Positions 6,691 through 63,266 of a stretch of DNA of 64,000 nt are shown in pieces. Position 1 is the stretch's first letter, and every line of letters begins with the position of its first letter. Source of the stretch: Ceratodon purpureus (lineage: Eukaryota; Streptophyta; Bryopsida; Pseudoditrichales; Ditrichaceae); the NCBI GenBank assembly GCA_014871385.1, contig CM026426.1, positions 37,263,918 to 37,327,917 of the forward strand. The letters are read 5' to 3'. The notes beneath the pieces were generated by a model. It was given only the letters and a program-made list of their open reading frames with translations, had not been told where the DNA came from and searched no databases. The position numbers were made by a program, and so were the translations under genes.

Positions 6691-6741
6691 GTGCCTCGAC
6701 ATTTACCGCGTATCGAGGGATCCCCCAATGTCCAAGGGTCT

Positions 6742-12598: not shown

Positions 12599-13066
12599 TT
12601 AAATATGGCATATTGCTATCAACAGGATAAGAAGAAGATGCATACATGATTCCGTGATGCCATAAAAGATCACCATGCTCTGGTGGACCACCTCAAGGTC
12701 CGTGAATAGCAAATTTTTTTCATCTAAAGCCACCTCCTTTCGGGTCTCCTTGGATTTCTTGGTTTTCTTTGACACTGCTGGCAGCTCCATCCTTCCCTCT
12801 GCGTGGTAGTACTGGCCAATAAATTGTGGCAAGTTTGCATTTAGCTCCTGCCGAAGCCTTCTAACGAGGTAGGGACTAGGCAGTATGTTGGATTTGCCAT
12901 CCTTGGTCAAAGCCTGAACTAGATCCTTCACGGTTTGGTAAATAGCACCATAGTCGCGATAAGACACCCCTGCTTGGTCGCAGGCAGCAAGAATATTACC
13001 CAGCCCAACGCTTTTTCCAATTGCCTTGAGGATGTTACTAGCAATCTTTCTCTTAACATGCTCCAT
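12599..13066 (-). CDS. Unassigned transposase, middle part (truncated copy)
   Basis: The ATG (MEHVKRKIASNILK) lies two codons beyond the TAG of the preceding ORF. The 155-residue product matches the first ~146 residues of the frame at 34,553, then ends in foreign sequence at the element's truncation. The matched part is helical and lysine-rich (KKTKKSKETRKEV) and lies before the first candidate catalytic Asp of the long copy. This fragment therefore cannot be an active nuclease. Differences from the long copy within about 45 codons are mostly transitions at CG or CHG sites. Confidence 0.7.
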   Translation of the reverse strand: MEHVKRKIASNILKAIGKSVGLGNILAACDQAGVSYRDYGAIYQTVKDLVQALTKDGKSNILPSPYLVRRLRQELNANLPQFIGQYYHAEGRMELPAVSKKTKKSKETRKEVALDEKNLLFTDLEVVHQSMVIFYGITESCMHLLLILLIAICHI

Positions 13067-13072
13067 AGATGG

Positions 13073-13912
13073 CTAAGTTGCGAGGGTTAGACCTTCATGC
13101 CTAGACAGTATCTTTGCTAACGCTACAGCAGTTCCTGTTTGGGTGGCTTTATCCCCACGAAGTCGCTGCTTCTCATGGTTGACCCGGTTGTTGTCGTTGA
13201 CAGCATCCACGAGATGAGGTTGCAAATGCGTCCTAACGAGCTTCACTCTGCATTTTGCCCACCCTGAACCATGATTCAACTCGTGAATCCCCCTGAGTGG
13301 TCGAGCCCTACGTTGCATCCCCATAGGCGTTACCTTCAAAGGGCTCGGCCCCTCCTGTAGTCGCTCACTTGCTTGCTGCCAGCGACGCACCTCGGTCTCC
13401 AAGCCCTGCACCGTCACCCTATGATTTCTCTCCATGCTGCTCATCTCGGTTCGAATGGTCTCCAATTCAATCCGCAATTGCATGCATGTATCCTCAATGT
13501 CCCTGTTATGGTCGAACCTCTCTCTGCTGCCAGCAAGGTCGTCTCTCACCTTCCTGAGTTCTTCTAAATGTCGGCACTGCATTTCCATCTCACACCGTGT
13601 AAGTCCTCCTCCATCAACAAGACCCAATCTGCGGGCATATCCATACAGACCTCGCTCTCCATGACATATGAATTCCAGACAATCCCAAAGAGTTGTGAAT
13701 GGAGGTTGCCTCCTTGTTCCTGGATCAACCAGGTAAATGCTGCCATCGACCCACAAGTCAATGTTTGTATCCACGGCTGCCCTCCGTCCTGGAAATGTTG
13801 ATGGGCAGGGTTGCTTGGATCTCAATGAACCTCTCCTAACAAGTGGTGCATAGTGTGCATTAAGCGAAATTCCAACACGGTAGCTTGAAGCCTCTGCCAC
13901 TCCTGCTGCCAT
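13073..13912 (-). CDS. Unassigned transposase, N-terminal coiled-coil part (truncated copy)
   Basis: This frame of 279 codons starts with ATG (MAAGVAEASSYRVG) and ends at TAG (13,073-13,075). Residues about 55-75 form a WVDGSIYLVDPGTRRQP segment. Residues about 105-185 are heptad-rich with many Arg, Glu and Leu, a likely coiled coil. The last part is basic. In the other copy the codon corresponding to this TAG is CAG, and the frame there would run directly into the downstream ORF. The two ORFs are therefore probably one transposase split by a C-to-T change. The copy at 33,708 matches this protein almost residue for residue until a 1-bp loss near its own end. Confidence 0.7.
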   Translation of the reverse strand: MAAGVAEASSYRVGISLNAHYAPLVRRGSLRSKQPCPSTFPGRRAAVDTNIDLWVDGSIYLVDPGTRRQPPFTTLWDCLEFICHGERGLYGYARRLGLVDGGGLTRCEMEMQCRHLEELRKVRDDLAGSRERFDHNRDIEDTCMQLRIELETIRTEMSSMERNHRVTVQGLETEVRRWQQASERLQEGPSPLKVTPMGMQRRARPLRGIHELNHGSGWAKCRVKLVRTHLQPHLVDAVNDNNRVNHEKQRLRGDKATQTGTAVALAKILSRHEGLTLAT

Positions 13913-14671
13913 CGTGAGTCCAGAATTCCGAAGTAGTGATTCAAGCTCTCAAGGCCCCGGATTGGCCTGGAAGTATGCAGAAAATCGTTTTTAAGATTGC
14001 TATATACCCAAAACTCGAGAGTTCTCAACAAGCAAACCCTATACCATAGCCACTCAAGGAAATTGCAGGATCAAATGAATAGCATGCAATGTACAAATGC
14101 ACGACCCCAACTTGTCATAGAGAAATCGACACTTACACAACCTCTTCAATCCACGGCAGTAGGTGTTGCAAGAACACCCTTCGAATGCTTGCTGCTCGAA
14201 TTTGTAATTGCTGCCAGCGCGTATCTGTACAATCATGGTCGCTGGTTTAGTTGTCACACTTTCCCTTGAATCCCTCGAATTCCACCTTAGAATGGGGTCT
14301 TTGGTCCTGCAACACCCAAATTCTATGCACCCAACTTCGATTCACCCCATTCCTAGGTGGGGAGACCAACCTAGTCTCGACCGAGCTCCATGGCTTCTTC
14401 CCGTTGTGGCAACAAACTTCGAATCTTGAAACGATTGACACCAATCTCCCGTCATCTCTCCTTCAAATCGGGCTTCAAGGGCAATAAATGCGAGAAGGCG
14501 TGGTTCACCAAACAAGGCAGCCACCTCGGCGCCACTAGGCACACTGACCCCGCCCCGCAACCCCATCCCGAGACCATTAAGTCGCCCTATTAACTCTGCG
14601 GGCAGCGATCCTGGCACCCGTTGCCAGCGACAGTGCCGCATTTGGGCAGGGGGTTCAACTAGAAAGGGCAG

Positions 14672-14711
14672 GCTTACACGGCCTTTTCCAGACCCCTTTT
14701 TGCACCTAATG
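14672..14711 (-). repeat. Terminal inverted repeat of the truncated copy
   Basis: On the minus strand the sequence is CATTAGGTGCAAAAAGGGG, then TCTGGAAAAGGCCGTGTAAGC. The same terminus is found at 32,168, at 47,128 (inverted) and at both ends of 62,866-63,266. The element's far end is missing, so no target duplication can be read here. Confidence 0.85.
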
Positions 14712-30350: not shown

Positions 30351-31000
30351 GGGTAGACCACAATAAATGTACCAAAAAAGTGCTTAACTATTTGTCAGTT
30401 TCAGCCCTATTGCTAAAATTGTGCAAAAGTGATGGAAAAATGATATTGTAGTCAATTTTTTTTGCTAATATAGATTCTCAACTTGTTTTTCTACAACTTG
30501 GAAAAGTTTTGTGCAAAGTAGACACTTTGAAGTTATTGTATGAAGGCTTTAAATCCAAGTACAGTGAATGCAGTCATTTGAAAAAGTGACTATAAAAGAA
30601 TCAAAATTTATCAAAAAATCACTTTTAAAAAAGTGATGCCCTCCGTATGTTTAAGAGGTATTCCAAAATAGTCAATTCAAGTACTCATTAATTGATTTAG
30701 GGTTTCAAAAGTACCACAAGGATGTTTCATAGAGGGCCTAAAATGAAGAAATTAAAACATTGAAAAAGTTTATTTTCATGATTTAGAATTAGTGGTCAAA
30801 TTAAGTTTCAATTGAAGATGTTCTTTTTATGAAGATGCATGGAAGATACCTTATGACACCCTAAAAAGTAACTGAAATGCTCAAAAACTACACCAAACTC
30901 CTCAAAATTAGCTTTGAGCTTTGAAAAACAGCACACTTCATAATCACTTCCAAGTGATTACATGTGTCACTTTGTGGTCCACTTTACCGTGCTTCCCCCC
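30351..31000. mobile_element. Non-autonomous TIR element of the G-rich family, copy 1 (650 bp)
   Basis: The left end is degenerate (GGGTAGACCACAATAAA). The right end is GTGGTCCACTTTACCGTGCTTCCCCCC. The 4-bp sequence GCAT lies on both sides (30,347-30,350 and 31,001-31,004), a target duplication. The interior matches the copies at 32,424 and 54,240 (AGTGCTTA near the left, TTCATTTTCATGATTTAGAA and AACTACACCAAA near the right). It has no coding capacity. The left terminus is the most diverged of the three copies, so this is probably the oldest. Confidence 0.8.
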
Positions 31001-31309
31001 GCATTCCGTTTTGTGTGTCTACGTGTTAAGCTGATTGGAGTCTGTAGTTTTGTCATGGACCGCAATTTAGAGCCCGGTAATGTTGCATTCTTCCTCCTTT
31101 CCTTGGTCCTTCTACTATAGATGAGGCCATTCCACGTGACCAGGGTGATGGCGTAGTTCACGTTGGTCAGGCCACAAAACTTTGGTGAATATGAACACCA
31201 TCGTTTCTCGGTGCTTCACGATTTTTGAATCGTGAATGCAACCACTCCTTTAGACTAGGACCTTGGGTGGTGGGTGATGCCCCCCTCTACTTCATGGTTT
31301 TTCAGATTT

Positions 31310-32167
31310 GTCATACAAGAATATGATGACAATAGATGGTTAGAAAATTTTTGGATGACAAAAACATTTGACTTCAACCTCACCATCTTCTCAGCCCACA
31401 TATCGAAAGGCAGAAAACCCGATATCGCTTAGAAATTCCTCTGATTGTATGGGTCGCATGTAGTCTGTTCAAACTTTGTCGGGGTGCTAATTTGTTGCTC
31501 TGTTCTAAATTCTGCGCCATTGGCACAAGCACAACCTCTGGAATTATCCGAAACGTTGTGAAGGTCGTCAATAATGAATTTAGGCCAAGACTTCTTCGCC
31601 TACGGGAAATTGTCTACAGATGATAATGGCACAATTCCGGAAGTTCTCAGGCCTCCCAAAAATATATGGTGCCATCGCTGGAACACACTTCTATATTAGA
31701 AAACCGAATGATAGCTCGAAGGATTATTTCTACTTGAAAAGTGGTTGCTTCACATTGCAATGTCAAGCAGTAGTAGACAGGAGCCGAAAGTTCATTGAAA
31801 TCTCAGTAGAGATGCCGAGATCAACAAACGATGCAAGACAACTTCGAAGATCTATGTTGTACCCGAAAGCCACTACTACCAATCTATTCGACCCTGTAGA
31901 TGCAGCCGAGGAGTTTGTTCTTCACCTAATAGGGAACAAAGAATATCCTATCTTTCCATGGCTTATCACCCTCTACCGTAATGTCTCTGGTGGCCGACAT
32001 TTAGTTCAGGAGACTCTCCTCAACCGCAAGCAATCTCGTGCAAGTAGCATTGTTGAAAATGATTTTGGCATTCTCAAACAAACCTTCCGTGAGCTTCATA
32101 GTGCATCAAATTTGGACATCACTCTCTTGCCGGATGTTGTTTGCTGCTCAATCCTCCACAATCTACT
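31310..32167 (+). pseudogene. PIF/Harbinger transposase, 5' portion (DDE_Tnp_4 type)
   Basis: Three successive frames cover the family in order. Bases 31,310-31,432 give the RWLENFWMTK...ISKGRKPD N-terminus. Bases 31,435-31,620 give VACSLFKLCRGANLLLC and a GTSTTSGIIRNVV helix-turn-helix-like part. Bases 31,626-32,167 give the catalytic core. In the core, YGAIAGTH has Ala where the family has its first catalytic Asp. STNDARQLRRS keeps the second Asp, and SSIVENDFGILK keeps the Glu. The gene has a TAG at 31,430, two frame changes and this active-site loss, so it is dead. The coding frame breaks off after CCSILHNLL, where a CATTAGG-terminus transposon begins, and resumes at 47,132. Confidence 0.85.
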
Positions 32168-32207
32168 CATTAGGTGCAAGAAGGGGTCTGGAAAAGGCCG
32201 TGTAAGC
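32168..32207 (+). repeat. Left terminal inverted repeat of the 15-kb element
   Basis: The sequence runs CATTAGGTGCAAGAAGGGG, then TCTGGAAAAGGCCGTGTAAGC. It matches the inverted right end at 47,089-47,128 and the termini at 14,711, 62,866 and 63,266. It lies directly against the PIF codons for HNLL. Confidence 0.9.
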
Positions 32208-32423
32208 CTGCCCTTTCTAGTTGAACCCCCTGCCCAAATGCGGCACTGTCGCTGGCAACGGGTGCCAGGATCGCTGCCCGCAGAGTTAATAGGGCGACTT
32301 AATGGTCTCGGGATGGGGTTGCGGGGCGGGGTCGGTGTGCCTAGTGGCGCCGAGGTGGCTGCCTTGTTTGGTGAACCACGCCTTCTCGCATTTATTGCCC
32401 TTGAAGCCCGATTTGAAGGAGAG

Positions 32424-33160
32424 GGGGGGAAGCACAATAAAGTGGACCACAAAAGTGCTTAGCTCATTGCCAATTTCAGCCTGTTGTGTAAACACACTAG
32501 AAAGTGGCATCTAAAACTTCTTGATGGGAAATTAAGTTTGGGATACGGAAAGTAGACTTGATGTACTACAACTTCCGAAATTTGCGTTCGTAGTTGTTGA
32601 GTTGAGACACCTCTATGAACACCACAAAGTTGAACAAAGTGAATGCAGTCATTTGGAAAAGTGACCGTATTACATTGTAGTTTTGACAGAATTCACTTTT
32701 GACTTTGTGGGGCCCTTCATTTGTACATTGCGCTTGTAGAAATGATCCAGGTGGCCGTGTTTGCAATCCTAGATTGGCAAAAAGTATCCCCGGGACGTTT
32801 TTAAAACACTGTTTTTGGTGAAACTTTTTGTGAGGTTTTTTTCACCAAACATTGTTTTTTAAATTGGAAAAAACATCCTCTAAAGACAATAGAGGGCCCC
32901 AAATGAAGAAATCAAGACTTTGGAAAAGTTCATTTTCATGATTTAGAACTAGGGGTCAAATTAAGTTTCAGTTGAAGATGTTTTTTTCATGGAGATGTGT
33001 GTAAGATACCATATGACACCTTAAAAAGTGACTAAAATGCTCAAAAACTACACCAAAATGCTCAAAATCACCTTTGAGCTATAAAAAACAGCACACTTCA
33101 TATTCACTTCCTAGTGATCACATATTGCACTTGGTGGTCCACTTTATTGTGCTTCCCCCC
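32424..33160. mobile_element. Non-autonomous TIR element of the G-rich family, copy 2 (737 bp)
   Basis: The ends are GGGGGGAAGCACAATAAAG (then TGGACCAC) and GTGGTCCACTTTATTGTGC followed by TTCCCCCC, a ~27-bp nearly perfect inverted repeat. AGAG is duplicated at 32,420-32,423 and 33,161-33,164. The truncated sister transposon at 12,611-14,711 has the uninterrupted site with a single AGAG, which proves insertion. There is no long frame inside; poly-T stretches and AACTACACCAAA occur near the right end. The superfamily is not clear: 4-bp (elsewhere 5-bp) duplications with G-run ends do not match the common plant classes. Confidence 0.92.
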
Positions 33161-33164
33161 AGAG

Positions 33165-33707
33165 ATGACGGGAGATTGGTGTCAATCGTTTCAAGATTCG
33201 AAGTTTGTTGCCACAACGGGAAGAAGCCATGGAGCTCGGTCGAGACTAGGTTGGTCTCCCCACCTAGGAATGGGGTGAATCGAAGTTGGGTGCATAGAAT
33301 TTGGGTGTTGCAGGACCAAAGACCCCATTCTAAGGTGGAATTCGAGGGATTCAAGGGAAAGTGTGACAACTAAACCAGCGACCATGATTGTACAAATACG
33401 CGCTGGCAGCAATTACAAATTCGAGCAGCAAGCATTCGAAGGGTGTTCTTGCAACACCTACTGCCGTGGATTGAAGAGGTTGTGTAAGTGTCGATTTCTC
33501 TATGACAAGTTGGGGTCGTGCATTTGTACATTGCATGCTATTCATTTGATCCTGCAATTTCCTTGAGTGGCTATGGTATAGGGTTTGCTTGTTGAGAACT
33601 CTCGAGTTTTGGGTATATAGCAATCTTAAAAACGATTTTCTGCATACTTCCAGGCCAATCCGGGGCCTTGAGAGCTTGAATCACTACTTCGGAATTCTGG
33701 ACTCACG
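33165..33707 (+). other. 5' region of the transposase gene in the 15-kb element
   Basis: This stretch is shared almost exactly with the truncated copy (13,920-14,455, minus strand). It has several open frames of 67-90 codons on both strands, but conservation between the copies is no higher than in non-coding parts. It most likely holds the promoter, leader and perhaps a 5' exon of the transposase gene. CGCTGGCAGCAATT near 33,400 is a one-mismatch copy of the element's palindrome. Confidence 0.4.
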
Positions 33708-34496
33708 ATGGCAGCAGGAGTGGCAGAGGCTTCAAGCTACCGTGTTGGAATTTCGCTTAATGCACACTATGCACCACTTGTTAGGAGAGGTTCATTGAGA
33801 TCCAAGCAACCCTGCCCATCAACATTTCCAGGACGGAGGGCAGCCGTGGATACAAACATTGACTTGTGGGTCGATGGCAGCATTTACCTGGTTGATCCAG
33901 GAACAAGGAGGCAACCTCCATTCACAACTCTTTGGGATTGTCTGGAATTCATATGTCATGGAGAGCGAGGTCTGTATGGATATGCCCGCAGATTGGGTCT
34001 TGTTGATGGAGGAGGACTTACACGGTGTGAGATGGAAATGCAGTGCCGACATTTAGAAGAACTCAGGAAGGTGAGAGACGACCTTGCTGGCAGCAGAGAG
34101 AGGTTCGACCATAACAGGGACATTGAGGATACATGCATGCAATTGCGGATTGAATTGGAGACCATTCGAACCGAGATGAGCAGCATGGAGAGAAATCATA
34201 GGGTGACGGTGCAGGGCTTGGAGACCGAGGTGCGTCGCTGGCAGCAAGCAAGTGAGCGACTACAGGAGGGGCCGAGCCCTTTGAAGGTAACGCCTATGGG
34301 GATGCAACGTAGGGCTCGACCACTCAGGGGGATTCACGAGTTGAATCATGGTTCAGGGTGGGCAAAATGCAGAGTGAAGCTCGTTAGGACGCATTTGCAA
34401 CCTCATCTCGTGGATGCTGTCAACGACAACAACCGGGTCAACCATGAGAAGCAGCGACTTTGTGGGGATAAGCCACCCAAACAGGAACTGCTGTAG
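33708..34496 (+). CDS. Unassigned DDE-type transposase, N-terminal coiled-coil part (long copy)
   Basis: The ATG frame (MAAGVAEASS) matches the minus-strand copy at 13,073-13,912 almost throughout. A globular first 100 residues (VDGSIYLVDPGTRRQP) is followed by a coiled coil rich in Arg/Glu/Leu at about 105-185, and then a basic region. Near 34,470 one A is missing relative to the sister copy (GATAAGCC against GATAAAGCC). This shifts the frame and ends it at 34,496. In the sister copy the frame continues to where the next ORF begins, so both ORFs are one gene in origin. Confidence 0.75.
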   Translation: MAAGVAEASSYRVGISLNAHYAPLVRRGSLRSKQPCPSTFPGRRAAVDTNIDLWVDGSIYLVDPGTRRQPPFTTLWDCLEFICHGERGLYGYARRLGLVDGGGLTRCEMEMQCRHLEELRKVRDDLAGSRERFDHNRDIEDTCMQLRIELETIRTEMSSMERNHRVTVQGLETEVRRWQQASERLQEGPSPLKVTPMGMQRRARPLRGIHELNHGSGWAKCRVKLVRTHLQPHLVDAVNDNNRVNHEKQRLCGDKPPKQELL

Positions 34497-34552
34497 CGTT
34501 AGCAAAGATACTGTCTAGGCATGAAGGTCTAACCCTCGCAACTCAGCCATCT

Positions 34553-35641
34553 ATGGAGCATGTTAAGAGAAAGATTGCTAGTAACATCCTCAAGGCAATT
34601 GGAAAAAGCGTTGGGCTGGGTAATATTCTTGCTGCCTGCGACCAAGCAGGGGTGTCTTATCGCGGCTATGGTGCTATTTACCAAGCCATGAAGGATCCAG
34701 TTCGGGCTTTGACCAGGGATGGCAAATCCAACATACTGCCTAGTCCCTACCACGTTAGAAGGCTTCGGCAGGAGCTAAATGCAAACTTGCCACAATTTAT
34801 TGGCCAGTACTACCACGCAGAGGGAAGGATGGAGCTGCGAGCAGTGTCAAAGAAAACCAAGAAATCGGAGGAGCAGCGAAAGGAGGTGATCTTAGATGAA
34901 AAAAATTTGCTATTCACGGACCTTGAGGTGGTCCACCAGAGCATGGTGATCTTTTATGGCATCACGGAATCAGGTATGCATCTTCTTCTTAACCTGTTGA
35001 TTGCAAAGGTGAATGTCCGTTTGGTGCTAGCAACTGCATTGTGTGTCTTTAACAAAGGAAGCTTATCCAATTGCATTACTGAAACATTCTCACGTGAGGA
35101 TATTCTTGTAGAGTTGGAAGGGGCTCCGTTGATATTTGTTCTCAAACTGGATGAGGCAAAGATTGTAAACGGGAAGAAATTTGAACGTGTTAGCATCACG
35201 TTGATGAATAGGGCTTTGGACGCTAACATTCAGGTGGACCACGAGAGGTACTTTTCAATACAATCCGAGCAGGAGATTTGGCCAGTTGCCACGTTTCAGG
35301 TCGAGAAGGAGTCCTACGATGTTCTCGTGTGGATATTTGGAAAGTCGAACTTCCCGGCTGTGATTGCAGCACAGTCAAGTGGCGAGAAACCCACGGTCCT
35401 TGAAGTTGGAGAATTCCATGTGGAGTGGCATCTTGCTGCGGACATGAAGACAATCAAGTGTATGTACGGGCTTCAGTCGGGACCGTCGTGTGCAATGAAT
35501 TGCATATATCGCGACCAGAAGAGGATAAAGCCCACTGTGGGGACAGCAAGCCAGGCAAACGGTGCCATCAAGAGCCGTGGTAAAGCAAACTGGGTGGGGG
35601 GCTATTTTCCAGCAGCGTACCTAAGGAACCTTGTGACATGA
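34553..35641 (+). CDS. Unassigned DDE-type transposase, catalytic part
   Basis: This 362-codon frame begins MEHVKRKIASNILK. After a helical, lysine-rich first 135 residues comes an RNase H-like stretch. FVLKLDEAKIVNGKKFERV holds candidate Asp200 (35,150-35,152). A strand-rich region with SYDVLVWIFG follows. Then WHLAADMKTIKCMYGL holds candidate Asp297 (35,441-35,443), followed by a C-x3-C pair (CAMNC). The 'Asp in a basic/hydrophobic strand, then D-x-K-x-x-x-x-x-x-GL with a Cys pair' layout is shared by several eukaryotic DDE groups (Chapaev, Transib and many unnamed animal families). I cannot place it more closely. It ends near an intron or frame change; the coding sequence resumes at 35,689. 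Confidence 0.7.
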   Translation: MEHVKRKIASNILKAIGKSVGLGNILAACDQAGVSYRGYGAIYQAMKDPVRALTRDGKSNILPSPYHVRRLRQELNANLPQFIGQYYHAEGRMELRAVSKKTKKSEEQRKEVILDEKNLLFTDLEVVHQSMVIFYGITESGMHLLLNLLIAKVNVRLVLATALCVFNKGSLSNCITETFSREDILVELEGAPLIFVLKLDEAKIVNGKKFERVSITLMNRALDANIQVDHERYFSIQSEQEIWPVATFQVEKESYDVLVWIFGKSNFPAVIAAQSSGEKPTVLEVGEFHVEWHLAADMKTIKCMYGLQSGPSCAMNCIYRDQKRIKPTVGTASQANGAIKSRGKANWVGGYFPAAYLRNLVT

Positions 35642-35688
35642 CAACATCTAGTAGGTGGAGGCCTATCCTGCCGATTCCTTTGTCCAGA

Positions 35689-36859
35689 GTGCACATTTGT
35701 ACATTGCATGCCTTGGTTTGATTGACGGAGAAGATTGTGCACATGCATATCATGTATGTTTGGAACATACAGAATCAGAGACTGAGGGCTACTGCAATTG
35801 AACAGATGGAGAAGTCGTTGTCCGCAATTGGGGCTCATGGTGGAAACGTGGAGATTAAGAGGGACCCCAAGCTCAGTGGCACCAGTGGAAACGTGCCGCA
35901 GAAACTCTCTCTAAGTGGTAGTGTTGCTAGCAGACTTTTTAGGCCAAGCGTTTGGTCTGGCAATGATAAGGCCTGGAAGGATATATGTCAAGCTGAGAAT
36001 AATGATGCCGGAAGAAGAGCTGACCGCATTGCAAAGTATAAGATATGGCAAGCCTTTGAAGAGGTCGTACCTTATTTGACAGGATTGGTGTTGACAGCAG
36101 AGCAACGGATGTTGTTCAAGCAGTAGATACACAAGTAGGGAAAGGCATACTTAAAGGCGTTCGGAGAGGAGCATGCTACCCATTATATGGTATGCTCACG
36201 GCTCTATCTGTTGTTGCTTTTGGTCTTTCTTCAGTGAACCGTCTACTTGACCTAAGCGTCCGGCTTTCAACTTCTTTCTTCTTGTTGACAGCACGTAATT
36301 GTACGGCACTCAACTTGGTTTTTGGAACACTATGGGAGCCTTGGAGTTTGGAGCTGCCAAGGTATGGAAAATCACACCACCTAGGGAAGGCGGCACATCA
36401 AGCACATACAACCCATGGTGGTAGAAAAGTTCATACTAGTGCGACTCTCCAGCAGTTCGAGGATTGGTACTGAAACATACAACATCGATATAGGAAAAAA
36501 ATGGAGATCCAGAGAGCTGTACCTAACTGAGATGATGGACCACGGGCCCTAGCGGCATCCAGGAGACGCGAGCGGTGGCAACAATCAAACACTGCCATTG
36601 CCTACGAGGAGTGGAGGTCAAGGAGGAGGCGTGTTGGAGGAGCATATGTTCTTGAAGAAGTCGTGGAGGGCGAAGGAGATGGCGTGATGAAAGAAGAGCC
36701 GGAATGGAATGCCAACAAGGACTGGTTGGCAGTGGGGGCGAGGAAGATGAACAGAGGGACGCTGCTGGCAACTATGAGGACATCGCGGATGTTGACAACA
36801 GAGGTGCCGGGGAGGATATTGCCCCCGATGTCGACATTGAACATTCTGACAGCGACTAG
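35689..36859 (+). pseudogene. Unassigned DDE-type transposase, C-terminal part with candidate Glu
   Basis: Family-like coding resumes with VHICTLHALV (a TGA at 35,716 looks like a former CGA), then EKIVHMHIMYVWNIQ and a long open stretch to 36,126. In-frame TAG codons stand at 36,124 and 36,136. A 102-bp GT..AG intron candidate spans 36,190-36,291. Next comes WSCQGME with candidate catalytic Glu at 36,367-36,369. One base later the frame shifts and continues KSHHLGKAAHQAHTTHGG, a strong match in style to the 'QG-x-E-x-x' Glu motif of DDE transposases. The end is an acidic tail (EDIAPDVDIEHSDSD) before TAG at 36,857-36,859. The copy is therefore inactive but recently so. Confidence 0.6.
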
Positions 36860-39800
36860 GAGGCTCAGAGCCTTCACAACGGTTGATATGTTTTTTCTTT
36901 TTATACCAATGTTTTCTAGGAGGATAATGTTGTACAAAAGTAATACCTTTCATTTCAAATGTATCCTGAAGAGAGTGTAATGAATCGAACAGTTTCATGG
37001 ATTTGTTCTAGGTTTTGTTTTGTTTAGTCCTTATTATGTTTTTTCTCATTTCTATAGAATGATGTTTTTGAAAGTTCCTTTGAGAACCACCAAATAATAT
37101 ATTAAAGAGTACATGTATTCTGAAAGACCTCTAGATCAAAGTTGAATACAGGAGATCCTTTTAACTTAATCTTTGGCGTTTGAATTGATGTCAATGAAAA
37201 TAGTCTACGAGGCCTAGAAGAGGAGATAAGCTCGTTAGTTATTATCTCTTTGTAAATTTATTTCTCATTTCTTTAATGGTTTTCTGACTTTTAATTTTAT
37301 TTTATTTCATGTCTTTCCTCTCATTTTTCTAAGACGATGTTTTCTAAATTCCTTTGTGATTTTCGAATTTATGATATTTTAGTGTGAACTTTAATCATTG
37401 ATTACATGGTTTCTCATTTATAATTAATGAGAGGCACTCTTCTTAAATTTATTTCCAAAATTCATGATATTTTGTTCTGATTTCGGTCCGTTTTTTTTTT
37501 TTTCTCCACATTTAAGAATTTTTGGAGTTGCCAAACAAGGTTTTAATTTCATTTGTTTCTTATTATGTCTTCATTTGTTTTTTTTTTCCTTCCAATTTCA
37601 GATAATTCTCTTACCTTTCATTTTTTATTTATTTGGGTTTTTATCTTAAAAGAATGGTTTTTGTTCTATTTTGCTTCTTATTATCTTCAATTTCTGGATT
37701 TAGTCATTTTGGAATTCAATTATTCTATGAATTTTGTTTCCTTTTCAAGTTTGATTTCTAATTTTTTATGTTCATAATATATTCTTTCAAACCTTTAGAG
37801 GGAAGTGGATTGATCAAAATCTTACTGAAATGATTTGATACGTTTTAATTTATATTGATAAATATAGTCTACAAGACCGCGACAAGGACAGAAGCTCGTT
37901 AATTATTATTTGTTCTTGGATATATTTTAGAGGTTTTTTGCAGGTGTTTTTTGCAGGTGTTTTTTTACATTTTTATTTTTTTATTTTTTATTTTTTTTAG
38001 TTACATGTTGTTTTTATTATGACTTCTTTTAATTATTTTCCTTCTAATTTAAGATTGTATTCTTATCGTTCATTTTCTTGGGTTTTGTTTTGTTCCAGTT
38101 TTTAATATGTTTGAGTGTTATTTTGTTTTTTTGGTTTTTTTTTTGAGGTCCCCTTATTAATGTATTGTTTTAAAATCTTTTCCCAATTTCCTTTACTTTT
38201 TTGGTGAATTTACTGCCTTAACCGCTTCGTTCACAGTTACAAGACCCAATCTTGAAAGATTACAAGCTTCACTATTGAAAATTTCCAATACAAACTCTAC
38301 TTGGTTCAGAATGGAAAGGGCTTACCTTAGAAGAAATATGGGGTCTCAAAGGCGCACTATAAGGCAACCCTCGTTGTTATTTTGATTTTTGTATTCATTA
38401 AATTTTTTTTTACTTTTCCTATTTCCCTTCGATGTTCTCCAAAATTTATTGCCTCAACTGCTTCGTTCACAGTTATAAGAACTGGACTTGTAAGATTACA
38501 ACTTCCAGAATGGGGAGATGTCAATACAGACTCAATTCTTGTACGAAGAGTCATAAGACCACCACATTAGGTTCAAAAACAGGTCTATAAAAGGCCCTGT
38601 AAAATAGCCCGTGGTAGGGGATTCTTTGCCATTAATACAGTTGAGAATATCCCAACTGACATGAATTTAAATAAACGTGTAATCTTTAGATTGACAGTCA
38701 GAAGCCTACAAGACGCCACCTCCAAATTCATAGAGAATTTGTTTAGAGGTGTTTTTTATTCATGACAAAACGTAGTATCTTACTTGTAGGTAATGAAATG
38801 CTCCTCGGATTCATGAGCTTGGCATGGAAAGTATTAGCACTTTTTTTGATCGATGCCATTGATGTCAAAATAATTGAAAATCATTGAAATCAAGTCATAT
38901 TCCACAACCATCCTTTAATTTTAGAATTTTCTTCAGTGAAGTATATGCATATAAATTTATTATAGAGACAAATGAGTTTTTATATTTAAGTAAGTCAATT
39001 TTAAAACATCGTTGAGATTTTAAAACATTAAAGCAATAACAAAAAGACATTCAATCTAAATGACCTGCTTTGAATAAATGAAAAATGAGATCGATGTGAA
39101 TTTTGAGTTATTTTGAATTTTTAAATAAGTTTGAAAATAACTTTTAAATTAAGAAAGAAAGGAAGCTGAAAAAATTTCACAAGATTTCAATTTATGATAT
39201 TTAAAACATTGAATAATGGAATATTCTTACTGATACGAGCAGGTATAAACGTGTAAATTGTAAGTGGAGAAACTTCGCGAATAAAGAATGAATAAAATTG
39301 AACCAAAAATATGTCTACAATTGCATTGTTGTTTCTAGTTCAAAATTTTATTAGTTTGAAATAACTAAAGAAACTAAAATTAAAAATACTTTGTAGGAGA
39401 AGTAGAAATATGAAAATAAATTTTAAAAATTGAATGATGGAATCAAAGATACATGATATTTAAGATATTCTAGAATAAATTATAAGAGTTGTGACTCCTT
39501 ATAGAACTCATATAAGTCATTTCTCCTCAGCTTATCAAATATGAATAATAATTTATAGACCTTTTTTTTTTTAAAAAAAAATTCTTTTGTTTCTCATATC
39601 TGTAAAGTGATGTTTTCTAAGTTCCTTTGCGAATTTTCTAGGAGAAAGTCTATTATTTCTTGGACTTTTCCCAATTTTTTTCCAAATTTTGGTTATTTTC
39701 ATCTTTACAATAATTATTAAATAACTATAATAGTTCCCCTAGAATAAAATAGAGTACTTCGTACGAAGGGTAAGAAATACAAAAATATCATATAAAATTG

Positions 39801-40403
39801 AAAATGTAGAGTCAACTACACTTTTCCGCGGAGTTATTTCAGAATAAATTATAAGATTTTCACAAACTAATACAATTCATATTCTTCAATTTATCAAATA
39901 TGAATAATAATTTAGATCAGATTTTTATTTTTCTAATTTCATTATTTTCTCGTTTAATAGCAAATGATGTTTTCGAAAGTTCCTTTTAGAACAACTAATT
40001 ATTAAATTTTTAAGATTGCATTATTTTTCCATCTTCTTTCAATTTTAGTTAAGGTTCCTAACGATTGTTACTTTTGAATTTGCTTTGTTTTGGTCTTTAT
40101 TATTTTTTTCCCCCATTCTTTATATTTTTCCCGAGTTTCTGACATTTTTTTTCTTTCTTCTCTCAATTCTTATTAAGGTTCCTTACCATTTGGAATTATG
40201 GATTTGCTCTGATTTGGTCCCCCTAATTTTATTTTCCCTTTTTTGTCGTCTTTTGGTCCCCCCATTATTTATTTCCTTCTTTTCCTCCATTTTTATATTT
40301 TCCCCTATTTCCTCATTTTTTTTTTCCTCCATTTTTTTTTCCATTTCCCCATTTTTTATATTTTCCCCAAGTTCCTGACATTTTTTTAATTTATGCACTT
40401 CTG

Positions 40404-40440
<37 letters not shown>

Positions 40441-40640
40441 AACTTTTTCAATGTCCTTGAATTATTTTTCCAATCTTTACTTATTTCGTTATCTTTCGTC
40501 ATTTTTTTGGTTATCTTCTCATTTTTTAATTTAGTTAGTTTTCCAACTTCTCTCATTTTTTCTCACATTTTAGTATTTTGTTTTTTATTTCAATTTTTTT
40601 TCAATTTTTCCTTTTATCCAAATTTTTTTAATGTGATGGA
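36860..40640. other. T-rich interior of the 15-kb element, with dispersed short repeats
   Basis: There is no supportable gene; plus-strand poly-T dominates, including a run of over 30 T near 40,410. A ~50-bp phrase (TTTCTCATTTCT...GATGTTTTCTAAGTTCCTTT) recurs at about 37,044, 37,318, 39,590 and 39,945. Paired phrases around GCTTCGTTCACAGTTA occur at about 38,221 and 38,459, and around AGAAGCTCGTTA at 37,227 and 37,888. The stretch may be a large intron, a spacer or a nested older insertion. Confidence 0.5.
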
Positions 40641-41243
40641 ACATGGTTGAGGGGGCTGCATTATAATGGGCGCCGGTAACCCCCCCATGACCGTGGCGCC
40701 CATTCCCGCGCGGGGTAGAGAGGGGGAGGAGCGCTCCCCTTCCCGCTCTTGCCCTCGTTGCTGCCAGCAACCCCTCCGTGCTGAAGGCGACAGATTGGAG
40801 GGGAGATCTAGGGAGCGGAGGAGGAGACCCGAGAGGCGAAGCAAAGAGGGGAAGGCGGGAAGGGAGAGGGGGGCTGGGGTTGTGGGGAGGAAGAGAACCG
40901 CGAGCGCGGAGCAGAGGGCGCGAGGAGGAAGGGAGCCGCGGAGCTGAGGGCACAGAGGAAGGGAGTCGCGGGCGGGGAGGAGGAGAGCTACATTCGAGGA
41001 GGAAGAGAGCTGCGGGCGGGGAGGAGGGGAGCTGCGGGCGGGGAGGAGGAGAGCTGCGGACGCGGAAGAGGAGACCGGAGAGGCGGAGCTCGTAGGCTAG
41101 AGGGCGATGTAGCTGCAACGTAGTGTAGAGGAACGACGGACAACTGCAAGGCTGTGAGGAGGCAGATTCTGTGGCGACGGGCAGCTGCAGGCAGTGAGGA
41201 GGAACGACGGACAGCTGCAAAGTAGAAGGAGCGCGGAGTTCAG
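40641..41243 (+). promoter_or_regulatory. GC-rich leader of the cargo gene with a ~24-bp minisatellite
   Basis: Composition flips abruptly from T-rich to G-rich. Bases 40,960-41,070 contain imperfect ~24-bp units of GAGCTGCGGGCGGGGAGGAG. A perfect TGCTGCCAGCA lies at 40,759-40,769. The stretch ends GAGTTCAG|GTAACA, a good splice donor (intron from 41,244), and TTTTAGTTCAG closes at 41,533 just before the cargo frame. I read this as an untranslated first exon and promoter. The long frames on both strands here are by-products of low T/A content. Confidence 0.45.
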
Positions 41244-41572
41244 GTAACAATTTCAATTGGTTATTTCAAATTTTTTCATTGAGCTCAGCTATGCTTGTTG
41301 GGCTAAGTCTACTTTGCAAGGAGAAGGCGTGTTGGTTTCTACTTGCAAATCGTTGTGTCAAGATGGTTGTCAACTTGGTTGTGTAAATGAATGGTGATGA
41401 ACTGTATGCAAGAAGCTTTCCTTCACGTGTTGCAGCTGTGCTTGTTGTGAAGTTTAGAATTTAAACATTGAATTTACTCTCTTTCCTACTTCACTATTTA
41501 CGTAGGACTTAGAGTGCGTCGATTTTAGTTCAGGTGCTGTCATCTCTAACAAGAAGTGGTTGTGTCGCAGCC

Positions 41573-42931
41573 ATGGTTGCTGGCAGCAAGGACGACGGTG
41601 TTCTCACAACGTGGGACCTCCCTTTCAACCTCAAGTCTCTACCGCAGGATGTGGCGGACAAGCTTGTGGTGATTGCGCCCTTTCTTCTTAGTAGGAAGAG
41701 CGTAAACTACGACATCGATTTCTTCCACTGTACACTTGGCCTCTACAGAACTGAGATATCCTTCACCGAGCTCAGCAATGACAAGGTATGCAAGAAATCC
41801 TTGTTCATAGAGAGTTGGCCGGGACAACATGGAGGGCGCCACCACATTGCTGACTGCAGTGACAACCAGGCTATCTAGGCTTACACAGACTAGCATGCGA
41901 AGGTGTATGGAGGTGAAGGCCCTGACAATCAGACATTTGGTACCTCCTTCATTCGAGGCTGTCATCTGACCTTCGAGTTGGGCAAAGAAGTCAACTAGGC
42001 AGAGAAAGCCGCGTCCCTGCAAAAAGCCCGTGAGAAGGGAGCTGCCCGCAACCCTCTCAAGCTCACACCCCCAGCTCTGAGAGAGCAAATCGAGGCCCTC
42101 ATCGATGTGCTTGCTGGCCACATCGACGACAAGCCCTCTGCTCGTAACACATCCTTGGCCATTGAGGGAGTCGGCATTCAACCTAGCCAGGGCGTCCTTG
42201 TTACGGGGAGCAGCAGCAAGGGAGGGCCTGCAGCAGAGGGAGGTCGGGGTCGCACTCGAAGCCAGCTCAGGGCAAAGGCGGCCGTGACCACTGAGGAGGA
42301 GAGCGTGCCCAAGTCTTCACTTGCTGGAAGCAAGGATGAAGACCGACCCACCACGGATCCGAAGGCGAAGTTGGACCAGGCCACGGCCAAGAAGGCCAGA
42401 GCTCATGCCGACCTTGCGAAGAAGGAGGCTCAGAGGGAGAGCCTCGTTGGAGATTTGAAGAACCAGAAGACCTTTTTGAAGGAGGAGGAGGATGATGAGG
42501 GCCGGTTCTATGACGAGATTGCCGCCCACCGTGCTGCCAGCAAGATAGCCGGGGCCGCTGGCAATACGGTAGAGAAGAAGCGATTGGATGCTTTGGCCCG
42601 TCTCGGTGGTGATTAGATGGCCAATGCGAGCAAGGCTGCCGAAGAATCCCAGCTTCGCATTGACAAGAAGGAGAAGCAGCTGGTGGCATTGATGGGGGAC
42701 ATAGAGAAGTGCAAGGGCGAGGTCGGGGTTCTTAGCGTGGAGATCATGTCCCTGGAGCTGGCAGCGGCATTCATTCGCCCGAAGAGTGTGCTCCTACACT
42801 TGCCATCCGAGTTTCAAGCCCTCCCCATTCAGATTTCCGACCCTTGCCCCTTCTATGCACGGTACTTTATTGAGGCCGCTTGTGTAACCCTTGAACTGCG
42901 GCTGCTTGGCACACCCACATTGCATGTTTGA
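41573..42931 (+). CDS. Cargo gene of the 15-kb element: coiled-coil protein, first part
   Basis: From ATG at 41,573 (MVAGSKDDGVLTTWDLPFNL) one frame keeps strong coding character to about 42,900. It is interrupted only by TAG at 41,876, 41,891, 41,996 and 42,614. The first 100 residues are globular, with RKSVNYDIDFFHC and TEISFTEL. Then come a Gly/Ser-rich linker, an acidic/basic region, and from about 42,370 an Ala/Lys/Glu-rich coiled coil (AKKARAHADLAKKEAQRESL) that resumes after the 42,614 stop. No enzyme motif is seen. Such layouts fit structural or regulatory proteins. The perfect palindrome copies at 41,578 and 42,532 lie inside the coding sequence. Confidence 0.5.
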
Positions 42932-43484
42932 CGATGTCTTCTCCCTTGACGCCAAGTGTAGCCGTTGCTGCCGCTCCTTGAGTGAGGGGTGGCTTGGGCA
43001 ATGGGGATTTCCACTGCATGAGTCAGCTCAAGCGGAGCTCCAGCACCTCCAGGAGGTTTTCAAGTCCGGGGTGGGAGTACCAGACCTCTAGAGCCCCGTA
43101 GCTGGCAACAAGAGGGCCGCTGAGCGCTCTTCTCCTCCTTTGGGGGAGGAAAACCAAGTCAGGATGAAGAATCGCTTTGAAGAGGTTGAGAGGGCTTCGG
43201 GACTGCTTGTCATCGCCAAGATCTCCGCTCTGCCCCTTGTATCCGCGGCCTTGCTGCTAACAGCCGGAGGAGATGGCGATGGTGTTGCCAGCACCTAGAA
43301 GTCAGATGACATGAGCTTCCAACCGGAGACACAAGCCCCTCCACGCTAGGAGGCCGAGGACACAGCCTCTCATGGTGGTGGACTCAGGTCCAGTACTACC
43401 GAGTCCGCGGGGACATCTCAAGACCCGGCTGGAGTTGCCCTAGAGAAGCTAGTTAATGCCATGGCGAGCTCAGTAGAGGCTTAG
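42870..43484 (+). CDS. Cargo gene, second part (Cys cluster and Ser/Pro-rich tail)
   Basis: Coding continues in the next frame from about 42,890. A cysteine-rich stretch (NCGCLAHPHCM...KCSRCCRS) could bind zinc. Then come a Gln/Leu helix, a basic/acidic stretch (NKRAAERSSPP, RMKNRFEEVERA) and a Ser/Thr/Gly-rich tail to TAG at 43,482-43,484. Internal stops at 43,089, 43,298 and 43,348 are again all TAG. The frame switch near 42,890 may be an intron or a frameshift. Function is unknown. Confidence 0.45.
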
Positions 43485-44141
43485 AGTCTATGTTTTTTTT
43501 TGTTGATAGTGCCATAGCGGATTAGTATTAGCGGCACTTACTTTGTTCCACGTTGCATTTTCATTTGCTGCCCTGATTTTCGACTCTATGTTCGCAGCTG
43601 CGGTGCCAGCATGTAGTTGCTGGCAGCAGTGTGTAAGTAGTTCCAATTGAAGGGGGAGGGGATTTGGGGTCGGACTTTCTAGAAACCAGACCTCATTTTT
43701 TTTGGACACTTATGATGAATGTTATCCTATTTTAGTTCCATTTTGTGCATGTGGCTGCCACATTGGTCGTGATGGTATGGAAGTCGCCTTGGTCGTGAAC
43801 CCTAATGTGTGCTGACAGCAACATGTTTTAGAAGAAGACTTACATTCATCAAGGGGGAAGGTTACAGACCGTTCTAGGGATGATTGACCATATATTTAAC
43901 CATACATGATGTCTCAAGCACAACGCATAGTCCCTTACAAGTGTAAAAAGTCATCCTGGCATCGGTTTACTGAAACGTGGAGACATTTCAAATACTGTGG
44001 ACAGACTTGTGAGGACCCTAACAGATCACCTTGATGTCGTGGTGAAAACGTTGCTGTCCTACACCTCCACTATCTTGATGGTTTTGGGAACCGCCACCTC
44101 ACCAAGAAGTACACGCCTCTCATTACGTATGTTGATCTACA
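43485..44141. other. Intergenic, no gene seen
   Basis: This is the spacer between the plus-strand cargo gene and the minus-strand ORFs. It contains TTGCTGGCAGCA at 43,617-43,628 and the variant GCTGACAGCAAC near 43,812. Both are part of the dispersed palindrome set. Confidence 0.5.
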
Positions 44142-44714
44142 TCAATGCTTCCAACAAACTGCGTTTGTACAATTATGCTGATACCAAGCAGCAGCACCTT
44201 CCATATCTAAAACCAATGGCCTGATGCTACTTACATGTACCTTTTTTTCACGTGAACCGTCTGCTTCCACCAGAACCATGTTGTACTCTTTGGGATCATC
44301 GTCTCCGAGCGTCATTGCAATTTCATGGCGCAAGTGGGATACAGGCCAGTCCTTGCCCACTTCAAATGCTGGCATTGGTCTCCCTCTAAATGTACAGCAG
44401 ACTTCTACCATCTCCACCTCTGGTAGATGGTCAATTGCATCCCATCTGTTGTTGGCAGCACCCCGAAACCTTGTATACTGGAACCTGGTGTATAGTGTTT
44501 GCCTGCCCACATGGTACCGGAAGACAACGCTGGACCTGTTCACAACATACTTGATAACATCCTGGCCAATGTGAAACTTCTTAGCCCATCCAAGATTCAT
44601 CAGACTACTTAAGAGTGCCTCAGACGGAGAGTATAGAACGAAGAGTGTAGGTGTCCGCCGAATGCTGTCACCGCAAACAAGTCCACCATAACGTCGACAC
44701 GGGTGAAAATACAC
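44142..44714 (-). CDS. Unrecognised minus-strand ORF in the 15-kb element
   Basis: The uninterrupted 190-codon frame starts with ATG (MYFHPCRRYGG). It includes a basic strand-rich middle (VVNRSSVVFRYHVGRQTLYTRFQ region) and a segment FEVGKDWPVSHLRHEIAMTL followed by YNMVLVEADGS. The latter half has a ubiquitin-like or PB1-like beta-grasp flavour, but this is too weak to name. Being open over 570 bases in a decaying element argues for real coding. It may be a downstream exon of the gene that also includes 45,477-45,995 on the same strand. Confidence 0.5.
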   Translation of the reverse strand: MYFHPCRRYGGLVCGDSIRRTPTLFVLYSPSEALLSSLMNLGWAKKFHIGQDVIKYVVNRSSVVFRYHVGRQTLYTRFQYTRFRGAANNRWDAIDHLPEVEMVEVCCTFRGRPMPAFEVGKDWPVSHLRHEIAMTLGDDDPKEYNMVLVEADGSREKKVHVSSIRPLVLDMEGAAAWYQHNCTNAVCWKH

Positions 44715-45476
44715 TACGGTTGTACAAATTTGTAGTCACGGCATAGTTTCAAGGCTCTAAGAAGGTTTGGACCCAAATTTCCTCCAATTTCTTGTAGTTT
44801 ATGTTAAAATTAATAAGTAGGCACAGTTTTACATCCCGCATACATTGATGATTGCATGACAAAAAGTTCCTTGGATGCAAAATATGCATCTTTATGAGTA
44901 CAAAGTTACAAAGATTGTACTGTCACAGATTCAGAATTCACATGTTTGTACTCATTTTGTCAACTTAAAGATTTATTTTTTACATTTAAAAGAGTTGTGT
45001 GCAATCTTCTAATCTTTAACTACCATGCCTTACTATTTGATTATACTAAATACTAGTATATGATTGAAAAAGTTGACAAATGTGGGTTTTTTTTTGGGGG
45101 CCCCAAACATGGGTTTAAAAACAGATTTCTTTAATTTTTTTGGAGAATTCAGTAAAAACACTTGTTGGTAGAGAGGGGCCAAGAATTTGATTTTGATAGA
45201 ACTGAACTTTTCACTTTCATTTGGCACATCAAAGATTTATGCCTTGAAATAAGCTCTGGCCCTTCAAGATCCTCTATAGATACCTTTTTGTACAGGTATG
45301 TACAGGTTTGACTTTTTGTACAAGATGGACCAATCAACACCTCCCGCGTGGCATTTGAATTGGAATCCACCTGACGTGTCAAGTAACCTATGGTGCTACT
45401 GGTCGGCGCAAGAATATCTCGCATTTTGTACAGTTTGTACAATTTGTACTTAGTTTGTACAACTTATACACAACTG

Positions 45477-45995
45477 CTAGGAGAGCGACCCTAGCGTATT
45501 CTCACCCACACCCATAAACCATTGCTCATGGGCGAAACTACTACCAGTGGACGCTTTCATCGCATTCGAAAAATCTGCTGTCAGCTTCGTCCTGAAGGCT
45601 TCAGAGGTGTCCATGTCTGGCAAAGGCCACTCCACGTCGTTGAAACCTGGGAGCGAGATTAGTTCTATCCTCCCGTACAACGTAGGCTCTACCGAGGGAA
45701 AATATACACCACCAAGGAAGAATGTACCTGTGTCGAACAAGTCTGTATGGCTTTGACCATTCCACGTCGCCTCCCCAATCTCTGCATGGAGCACAAGAAT
45801 GGGACTAATGATAGACGTGGGGTGCACCCAATCATCAAAGTGCGAGGAATATAGGTAGTTGGCCGTGCATTGCCTACTTGCTGCCACAGCGGGATCTAAG
45901 CTTAATTGGCGAGGCTGATACGCATGTCACACAAGCACCTTATCCAGGTTGCTTGCTCCACCCACACCACGTATCCAAGAGAAATCCATGATCTG
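45477..45995 (-). CDS. Unrecognised minus-strand ORF, probably broken by one TGA
   Basis: The open part from 45,887 down to TAG at 45,477 encodes a globular-looking product (DWVHPTSIISPILVLHAEIG, TFFLGGVYFPSVEPTLYGRI, PGFNDVEWPLPDMD). The same frame is open further upstream, past a TGA near 45,928 that reads like a former CGA. Upstream residues include FKAQIMDFSWIRGVGGASNL. An ATG frame starting near 46,185 (MARRPKSLVQSV) may be its 5' end in another phase. No family is recognised. Together with 44,142-44,714 it could form a second cargo gene. Confidence 0.45.
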
Positions 45996-46185
45996 AGCCT
46001 TGAAGGCCCCTAAAAAATTATCTCCACCATGCTGCCTTGCCTCTCTACTCCAAGGCCCTTCCGACTTCGGTTGCAGCAGAACCCACGAATTCCCGGTCCA
46101 GCCTCATTGGGATCCAATTGCCATGGACATCTTGATCATTGTGCAAAATTACGCTCTGAACTAGCGATTTTGGCCGTCTAGCCAT

Positions 46186-47088
46186 GCTTCCCTAAACCCC
46201 AAGGTATTGGGAGACACAATAATGAACTATAACATCTCCCTTTCGTACCAACCAAGACGAGGGAACATGCTGCCAGCACAGGGAAAATCACATTTGCACA
46301 GTTTGAGCACTTGACGACAGCAGAATCCTGAGTTGGTAATCGAAGATGAAGTTTTCCCTAATCTTGCCTAGTCACAACGTTGCCCCTAGGAGGCAGAAAA
46401 GCTTGGATCATGTCAAGACAGGGAATTGATCATATTGAAAAAAAAATTACCTAGTTTTGTAGCTCGCTAGCAGCAAACGGCACATTGAGTTGACAGCGAA
46501 GAAAGCCGCACTTCCACCTTGATTCAGCAAGTAACTACTCAAGCACAATTCGCTACATGAACAACACCCACAACCCCAAATCACCTGGTCAACTCTCAGC
46601 AAGTGCCAACTCTTGCTGCCGGCACCGGTTTTCCACAATCACGTGTTTCTCCCTTCGCACTAACCCGCACCCACTCTCCCAAATCACCAAGAATCCTCCC
46701 AGCCCCAACTCCCGCTGGCTGCAAACAATTTCCCAAGTGCGTCGCTTCTCCCATAGCGCCGAACACCTGCTGGCTGCACTCACTCTCCCTACGGGTTTCA
46801 AAAACTTCGGCACTCACTTGTCGTTGCTGGAGGAGGTAGGTGGGCGGACTCTTAATTTCCTCGTTCAAAGTGCTTGCAGAAAGTTTGCTGACATGAGCAG
46901 GCCGGCTCGGGATCCGTGCCTTGCTCCGCCAGTCAGCTGCCAGTCCGCCACTGTAGATGTGCCCTCCACATGCCTCGCTCGGAGGTCACTGGTTCGAGCC
47001 CCCGTGGCGGTTGCTGGCACTACGGTGGCACGTCCAGTGCCATGTCAAAAAGTATGCGGGTAGCGGCCATTTTTTTCTCTCACATGCC
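46186..47088. other. Right subterminal region of the 15-kb element with a Pol III B-box-like word
   Basis: Several overlapping frames exist, but none has consistent coding character. Palindrome copies or variants lie at 46,268 (perfect), 46,452, 46,614 and 47,006. Bases 46,960-47,088 match the right half of the element at 62,866-63,266, including CTCGCTCGGAGGTCA and CTGGTTCGAGCCCCC (a good B box). The stretch runs directly into the right terminal repeat. Confidence 0.6.
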
Positions 47089-47128
47089 GCTTACACGGCC
47101 TTTCCATGACCCCATTTTGCACCTAATG
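47089..47128 (-). repeat. Right terminal inverted repeat of the 15-kb element
   Basis: Read on the minus strand from 47,128: CATTAGGTGCAAAATGGGG, then TCATGGAAAGGCCGTGTAAGC. It is followed outside by TCT and the resumed PIF coding frame at 47,132. Confidence 0.88.
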
Positions 47129-47131
47129 TCT

Positions 47132-47315
47132 TGGACAAAGTGCCGACGATGTCGACCCTCTCCTCGCCATGCTCCGATGGGAGGAGATGGCACTTGCTGT
47201 TTTTGAAGATACAATTCAAAAGCGCCCTCCTAAAGATGGCCCGGTAGAGGACGGGGTTGAGGGAGAGCACAAGCGGGTGAGGCTTGCGGCCTTCCTTGTG
47301 CACGACAGATTCTGA
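47132..47315 (+). pseudogene. PIF/Harbinger transposase, 3' portion beyond the insertion
   Basis: Directly after the right terminus at 47,128 and a 3-bp duplication, the frame reads LGQSADDVDPLLAMLRWEE, then a basic GEHKRVRLAAFL end, and stops at TGA (47,313-47,315). Joined to the codons before 32,168 it gives HNLL-GQSADDV, the expected continuation of a PIF C-terminus, with the phase exactly preserved. This identifies the whole of 32,168-47,128 as one insertion. Confidence 0.85.
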
Positions 47316-47786
47316 TTGGCAACTACTTGTGGTGGAGGCAGAGCAAGGTTGGGATGGTGGCGGGAGTGGTGGGTGGGTTCATTCAACGATTGCACAGACT
47401 AAACAAGGTATGTACACATGCACATACACCACTGCGATTCTTTTTTAATAATTGAACGGTAGTGCAATTTTATTGACATGTGAAAATAGGAAGCAAGTAG
47501 TAGGTATTGTGGACCTAACTTTTTTTTTTTGGCCCTCAGGGCTGATTGTGCTATTATGAATACTAGAATACAAGGTTTACTTATAATCTACTTCACGTAT
47601 GAATGCTATAGGAGGACACTGTGAAGGATAGAAGGGAGAGCGCAGATAAGCAAAAGGTGAAGACAATGATTCAAACTCCATCATGCTACTCTAAATATCA
47701 TTCTTCATAGTCGAAGATGTGACTACCGGAAGTTGACGTTGAAATGTTGTGTGCTTAGTTTCTTGCAGGTTCGTCAGGGGCTATTT

Positions 47787-54973: not shown

Positions 54974-55087
54974 TCCGTCCCAGATCCGGTAATACCTCAA
55001 GCTCCCGATAACGAGGGGGCGCGCGCGAATGATGGGCCAGGTGTGCAGGAGCCCGATATGGCACCCTAGGGTACTCCACCCAAGGAA

Positions 55088-62865: not shown

Positions 62866-63266
62866 CATTAGGTCCAAAATGGGGTCAAAATAAGGCCGTG
62901 TAAGCCTGTCCTTTCTAGGTGAACTCCCTACTTTGGGCACCTCTGCCGCTGGCAGCGGATGCCAGAGTTGCTGCCCGCACAGAACTGCGTGGCGCACTTA
63001 CAACAAAGGTCCTCGGAATATTAGTTGAGACATGAATGCCTCGGCTCGCGCTTTGGTCCCAAGTGGGCAGGTTGTGTCAGCCCGACACTGTAGCTTGTGC
63101 CCTCCACACGCCTCGCTCGGAGGTCATTGGTTCGAGCCCCCGTACCGGTTGCTGGCACCACGGAGGCACCTCACATGCCACGTCAAAAAGTACGCGGGCA
63201 GCGCCTGTTTTTTTCTCTCACGTGCTGCTTACACGGCCTTTTCGTGACCCGATTTTGCACCTAATG
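62866..63266. mobile_element. 401-bp non-autonomous element with CATTAGG termini
   Basis: The left end is CATTAGGTCCAAAATGGGG, reaching GGCCGTGTAAGC. The right end is its inverted match, ending in GCACCTAATG. The first ~130 bp match the left subterminal part of the 15-kb element (CTGGCAGCGGATGCCAG, GCTGCCCGCA). The last ~170 bp match its right end at 46,960-47,128. It is therefore a deletion derivative, probably mobilised by the large element's transposase. It contains TTGGTTCGAGCCCCC, a B-box-like word, and CGCTGGCAGCG, a near copy of the palindrome. Flanks AAT and AAA give at best a 2-of-3 target duplication. Confidence 0.85.

Follow-up and report, generated by a model that had tools for sequence, protein, structure and literature searches.

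A three-gene transposon family in the moss Ceratodon purpureus with a predicted RAG1-fold transposase and no fixed target-site duplication

What kind of mobile element interrupts a PIF transposase gene in the moss Ceratodon purpureus, and how did it come to sit there in exact phase? The locus lies in a window of 64,000 nucleotides, the whole stretch analysed here (assembly GCA_014871385.1, contig CM026426.1, positions 37,263,918 to 37,327,917, forward strand). The PIF open reading frame (ORF), a DDE_Tnp_4 by Pfam (E 3.7e-19), stays open to one end of a ~15-kb insert and is in frame again directly after the other, and the inverted termini of the insert agree at 35 of 40 positions; both features had been read from the letters alone in a preliminary description. 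We think it likely that the insert is a degenerate copy of a cut-and-paste DNA transposon with three genes and a full length of ~11.8 kb, belonging to a lineage without a named superfamily in the CACTA-Mirage-Chapaev-Transib (CMCT)/RAG1 clade and combining a RAG1/Transib-fold transposase with zero-stagger insertion and chromatin steering by a partner gene, ORF3.

The element family and its ends

The genome (362,488,568 bp, 151 contigs) was searched with the left terminus and inverted ends were paired, as had been proposed. The search gave 40 scored matches among 1080 candidates, two of them inside the window; 20 of the 38 others were fetched, and 10 of these 20 extended. Both ends are present in 13 of the 20 fetched copies, six long (10,902-11,880 bp; L010, L012, L018, L019, L024, L025) and seven internally deleted (1,048-4,732 bp; L014, L020, L021, L023, L026-L028). 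Four (L009, L011, L015, L022) had no right end within the fetched stretch, two (L013, L016) match over just 198 bp, and L017 was not traced as far as a right end. Because the long copies are collinear from left to right end, through an AT-rich middle and the companion genes ORF2 and ORF3, the 15 kb is one element, a unity previously deduced from the termini. In the deleted copies the same pair of ends is brought together. The extra length of the window copy consists of a nested insertion, a stretch of ~0.8 kb and length differences in the middle (Table 1). The nested insertion is missing from 18 of the 18 fetched copies whose match reaches that point, bearing out an earlier caution that the interior might include later insertions. 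It is a 737-bp element (30-bp inverted ends GGGGGGAAGCACAATAAAGTGGACCAC) that also occurs at 54240-54976 and 30729-31001.

Two relatives elsewhere in the window had been taken as signs of a family, and rightly so: one is a truncated copy of the left part, and the other, a 401-bp derivative, has 40 scored copies among 1261 candidates, the window's included, at 94-100% identity over 399-401 bp. Of the 40 best left-end matches, 27 lie on one contig (C6; 110,524,308 bp, 30.5% of the genome), as against 14 of 40 for the derivative copies, a bias of the left-end matches that is only suggestive, since they were ranked by likeness to a C6 copy.

Most copies printed carry CATTA..TAATG at their two ends, a few being mutated, and the element thus has the 5'-CA..TG-3' termini of the CMCT clade. 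Aligned together, its two ends and those of the 401-bp copy in the window match at most of the first 21 positions, diverge over the next 5 and match again over the following 14. Counted on both strands, the window element contains 17 instances of the heptamer GCTGGCA and each of the six long copies 19-24, compared with about 2 in first-order shuffles of L025. A tRNA-derived right end was considered and rejected, with no tRNA found and no Rfam family at gathering score, as was viral carriage, none of 35 pattern stretches in viral contigs encoding a relative.

Insertion junctions

We first examined the junctions of 21 copies of the 401-bp derivative, counting the one in the window; two of the 21 share a flank. 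None has an exact direct repeat of 2, 3 or 5 bp, and one, L043, has a repeat of 4 bp. We then counted 34 independent sites: 20 of the 401-bp form (19 fetched, one in the window) and 14 of long or internally deleted elements (13 fetched, one in the window); L045 was left out, its flank being the same as that of L044. Exact repeats of 1, 2, 3, 4 and 5 bp occur at 11, 3, 2, 1 and 1 of these sites, with 8.3, 3.1, 0.61, 0.10 and 0.02 expected on re-pairing flanks. No length is fixed: neither the 2-5 bp of the CMCT clade, nor the 5 bp of Transib and RAG-like (RAGL) elements, found at 1 of 34 sites, nor the 3-bp duplication that had been called probable. Base counts at the 34 sites reveal no preference for AAATTT, the target of Spy (PHIS superfamily).

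Two paralogous empty sites within the window, those of L049 and L054, are continuous across the junction (Table 1). L018 lies in a related transposase gene; once its flanks are joined, the product matches P0014 over 40 aa (77.5%) and shows no gap at the junction. Slightly further on, a single-base frameshift falls in a run of G. The L049 empty site falls in an ORF of 721 codons (55088-57253), near a copy of the 737-bp element, that we read as a hAT-like transposase, and the joined flanks of L020 and L051 presumably represent LINE and Copia coding sequence, which they resemble, with normal spacing. A TA duplication concealed within CATTA..TAATG can be discarded, those bases being missing from the empty sites. 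A spanning self-match at L046 is due to a tandem repeat and was excluded from the count; this 401-bp copy (C9:12819977-12820497) lies between two identical 24-bp tandem-repeat stretches.

How might an element enter a target and duplicate none of it? We propose that a transposase with a RAG1/Transib fold would bind the inverted ends beginning CATTAGG, excise the element and insert it by strand transfers at directly opposite points of the target, which would leave no target base duplicated; the same transposase might act in trans on derivatives that have lost internal sequence, the 401-bp form among them. What weighs against this proposal is that junction repeats of 3-5 bp occur at 4 of 34 sites, above the 0.7 expected, in three different lengths: 5 bp at L012, 4 bp in a GTTG-rich stretch at L043, and 3 bp at L014 and L027, the last in an A run.

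That slight surplus of short repeats, like the lack of a fixed duplication, would also suit a transposase that only excises, with host end joining placing the blunt element in chromosome breaks, and RAG-type enzymes do leave blunt ends. However, end joining rarely yields exact junctions every time, and all three cases, the two empty sites at DNA level and the L018 junction, are exact, no base having been lost or filled in. We therefore regard end joining as an unlikely alternative to zero-stagger strand transfer.

The transposase and its companion genes

The preliminary description had proposed a DDE-like transposase outside the familiar plant superfamilies, and its three candidate catalytic residues (35,150, 35,441 and 36,367) are indeed the conserved ones. 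Homology searches returned overlapping sets of 54 and 32 proteins, among which the only organism named is the fern Adiantum nelumboides, with four proteins, all partial matches. In homologue P0045 the triad stands at 411/508/785, and C528/C531 and H586/H591 are nearly invariant among the 54 homologues, giving the D, D, C(2)C, H(3-4)H, E order of the CMCT clade. The window gene is broken by frameshifts and stops, and its C(2)C motif, upstream of H(4)H, has become CIYR, with one Cys lost. A coiled-coil ORF at 33708-34496 forms the N-terminus of the transposase: the two are continuous in homologues P0043, P0045 and P0051, and in the truncated copy (12.6-14.7 kb) one open frame spans the join. If this was the coiled-coil gene earlier described as cargo, that label has to be dropped; a separate second plus-strand gene lies at 41.6-43.5 kb. 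Pairwise dN/dS is 0.38 for the transposase core and 1.09 for its N-terminus (1 pair each).

Structure prediction against DDE folds, which had been recommended, was run on P0045 and gave a model of the RAG1 type seen in Transib and RAGL elements, suggesting that RAG1/Transib is the nearest fold; the fold matches listed include no RAG2, hAT, CACTA, Mirage or Chapaev structures, which excludes nothing. The catalytic Glu motif can be aligned with RAG1, yet the transposase has no Pfam or PDB sequence match; Pfam likewise matched neither ORF2 nor ORF3, and a PDB sequence search with ORF2 gave nothing.

The product of ORF2 has a coiled coil; its Cys/His cluster we take, on its pattern and without support from Pfam, to be RING-like. 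The pairwise dN/dS of ORF2 is 0.23-0.65 (6 pairs). Two minus-strand ORFs had been listed separately and are one gene, ORF3, split by the ~0.8-kb stretch, with 30 homologues at 39-96% identity and a pairwise dN/dS of 0.34-0.57 (6 pairs). ORF3 is predicted to open with a BAH domain: its structure model, a weak one, has BAH proteins among its matches. We infer that ORF3, convergent with the transposase, might steer the complex to marked chromatin, much as the PHD finger of RAG2 acts beside RAG1.

Relatives, alternatives and implications

The suspected kinship with CACTA, Mirage and Chapaev stands at the level of the clade, with the predicted fold nearest RAG1/Transib. According to the excerpted text of PMC12730594, the CMCT lineages (CACTA/EnSpm, Mirage, Chapaev, Plavaka, ESTA, Lanisha) have CA..TG termini and C(2)C and H(4)H motifs in a D..D..C(2)C..H(3-4)H..E layout, as our element does, whereas their 2-5 bp duplications contrast with the lack of a fixed one here. 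Features so common across the clade would also allow a deviant CACTA/EnSpm (or Mirage/Chapaev) element. We consider this improbable: no transposase family is among the 25 of 52 Pfam families listed for the 54 members at E<=1, CACTA models included, and the 2-4 bp target duplications of CMC elements given in the available part of PMC4482050 are not present here. Spy, in that same partial text, is likewise a DDE transposon without target duplication, but its AAATTT target and PIF-related transposase are not shared by our element with its predicted RAG1 fold.

RAG-like elements (ProtoRAG/RAGL), as far as the excerpts of PMC9435367 go, resemble our element in the predicted RAG1 fold, a second gene convergent with the transposase and bipartite inverted ends. 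Could it then be an ordinary Transib or RAG-like transposon whose 5-bp duplications, reported together with bipartite ends in those excerpts, have been blurred by age? The 5-bp direct repeat of L012 would fit, but we find this highly unlikely: no such repeat flanks any of the 21 401-bp copies although these are 94-98% identical to the window's, the two empty sites are continuous without one, the bipartite-end sequences differ, with CATTAGG termini, and no sequence-level match was found. Moreover, the convergent gene is predicted to encode a BAH protein rather than a Kelch RAG2, and there is one further gene; three genes and a length of ~11.8 kb also set the element apart from Transib, as does the lack of a 5-bp duplication. 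A composite of separate elements, which an extra left-type terminus and the AT-rich middle might suggest, can be set aside with near certainty, given the end-to-end collinearity of the long copies and the shared ends of the deleted ones. The extra terminus lies within that middle and may be what is left of a related nested element.

That plants contain relatives of RAG1 is in itself nothing new, given the 39 Transib-like plant proteins reported in the excerpted PMC9435367. We provisionally regard the lineage of our element as new; among the literature matches listed we found no account of such a transposon family, and none of the 15 listed out of 84 names a BAH domain. With this family, the clade from which V(D)J recombination arose gains an apparent land-plant branch, whose transposase has diverged from RAG1 beyond the reach of our sequence searches. 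Should integration prove to be zero-stagger, the RAG fold would be decoupled from the 5-bp duplication, and a histone reader in the partner gene would make the question of RAG/chromatin-reader pairing testable in an independent case. More tentatively, and with more doubt than confidence, we suggest that mosses and ferns might carry a RAG1-fold transposon system that pairs a recombinase with a convergent chromatin-reader gene (BAH in place of PHD), evolved apart from RAG1/RAG2 and inserting with zero stagger, in which case RAG-type strand transfer would not be tied to 5-bp spacing.

Table 1. Features of the window discussed in the text (positions within the 64,000 nucleotides).
Feature	Position	Strand	Remarks
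Whole element, degenerate window copy	32168..47128	+	collinear genomic copies with both ends
Left terminal inverted repeat, CATTAGG...	32168..32207	+	
Right terminal inverted repeat	47089..47128	-	
PIF transposase gene, left part (target)	31620..32167	+	Pfam
PIF transposase gene, right part	47129..47316	+	
Transposase gene, coiled-coil N-terminus and predicted RAG1-fold core	33708..36500 (limits approximate)	+	frameshifted, with stops here; fold from homologue P0045
First catalytic Asp (KLDE)	35150..35152	+	invariant in 8-sequence alignment
Second catalytic Asp (AADMKTIK)	35441..35443	+	nearly invariant in 54 homologues, invariant in 8
H(4)H motif (HICTLH)	35692..35709	+	
Catalytic Glu (QGME)	36367..36369	+	aligned with RAG1 E962
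ORF2, coiled coil and Cys/His cluster	41573..43484	+	open frame of 656 codons (stop to stop) in L019; disrupted here
ORF3, predicted BAH domain near N-terminus	44142..46185	-	open frame of 414 codons (stop to stop) in L024, L025; disrupted here
Nested insertion, own 30-bp inverted ends, 4-bp AGAG duplication	32424..33160		empty site in copy 12613-14711
Extra left-type terminus (31/40)	38565..38604	+	in copies L009, L010, L015 too
~0.8-kb stretch present in window copy	44702..45507		missing from 6 copies with spanning printed matches (L009, L010, L011, L015, L022, L024)
Truncated copy, left part of element	12613..14711	-	98.8-99.2% identical
401-bp non-autonomous derivative joining both ends	62866..63266	+	
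Paralogous empty site of L049	55650..55768	-	119 bp, 113 identical, 0 gaps across junction
Paralogous empty site of L054	60431..60507	+	77 bp, 93.5% identical, 0 gaps; 17 bp on short side

Elsewhere in the window, ORFs at 4625-8040 presumably belong to a gene of another large DNA transposon, their GHTHEDIDAYF motif being one known from a DUF7869-type family.
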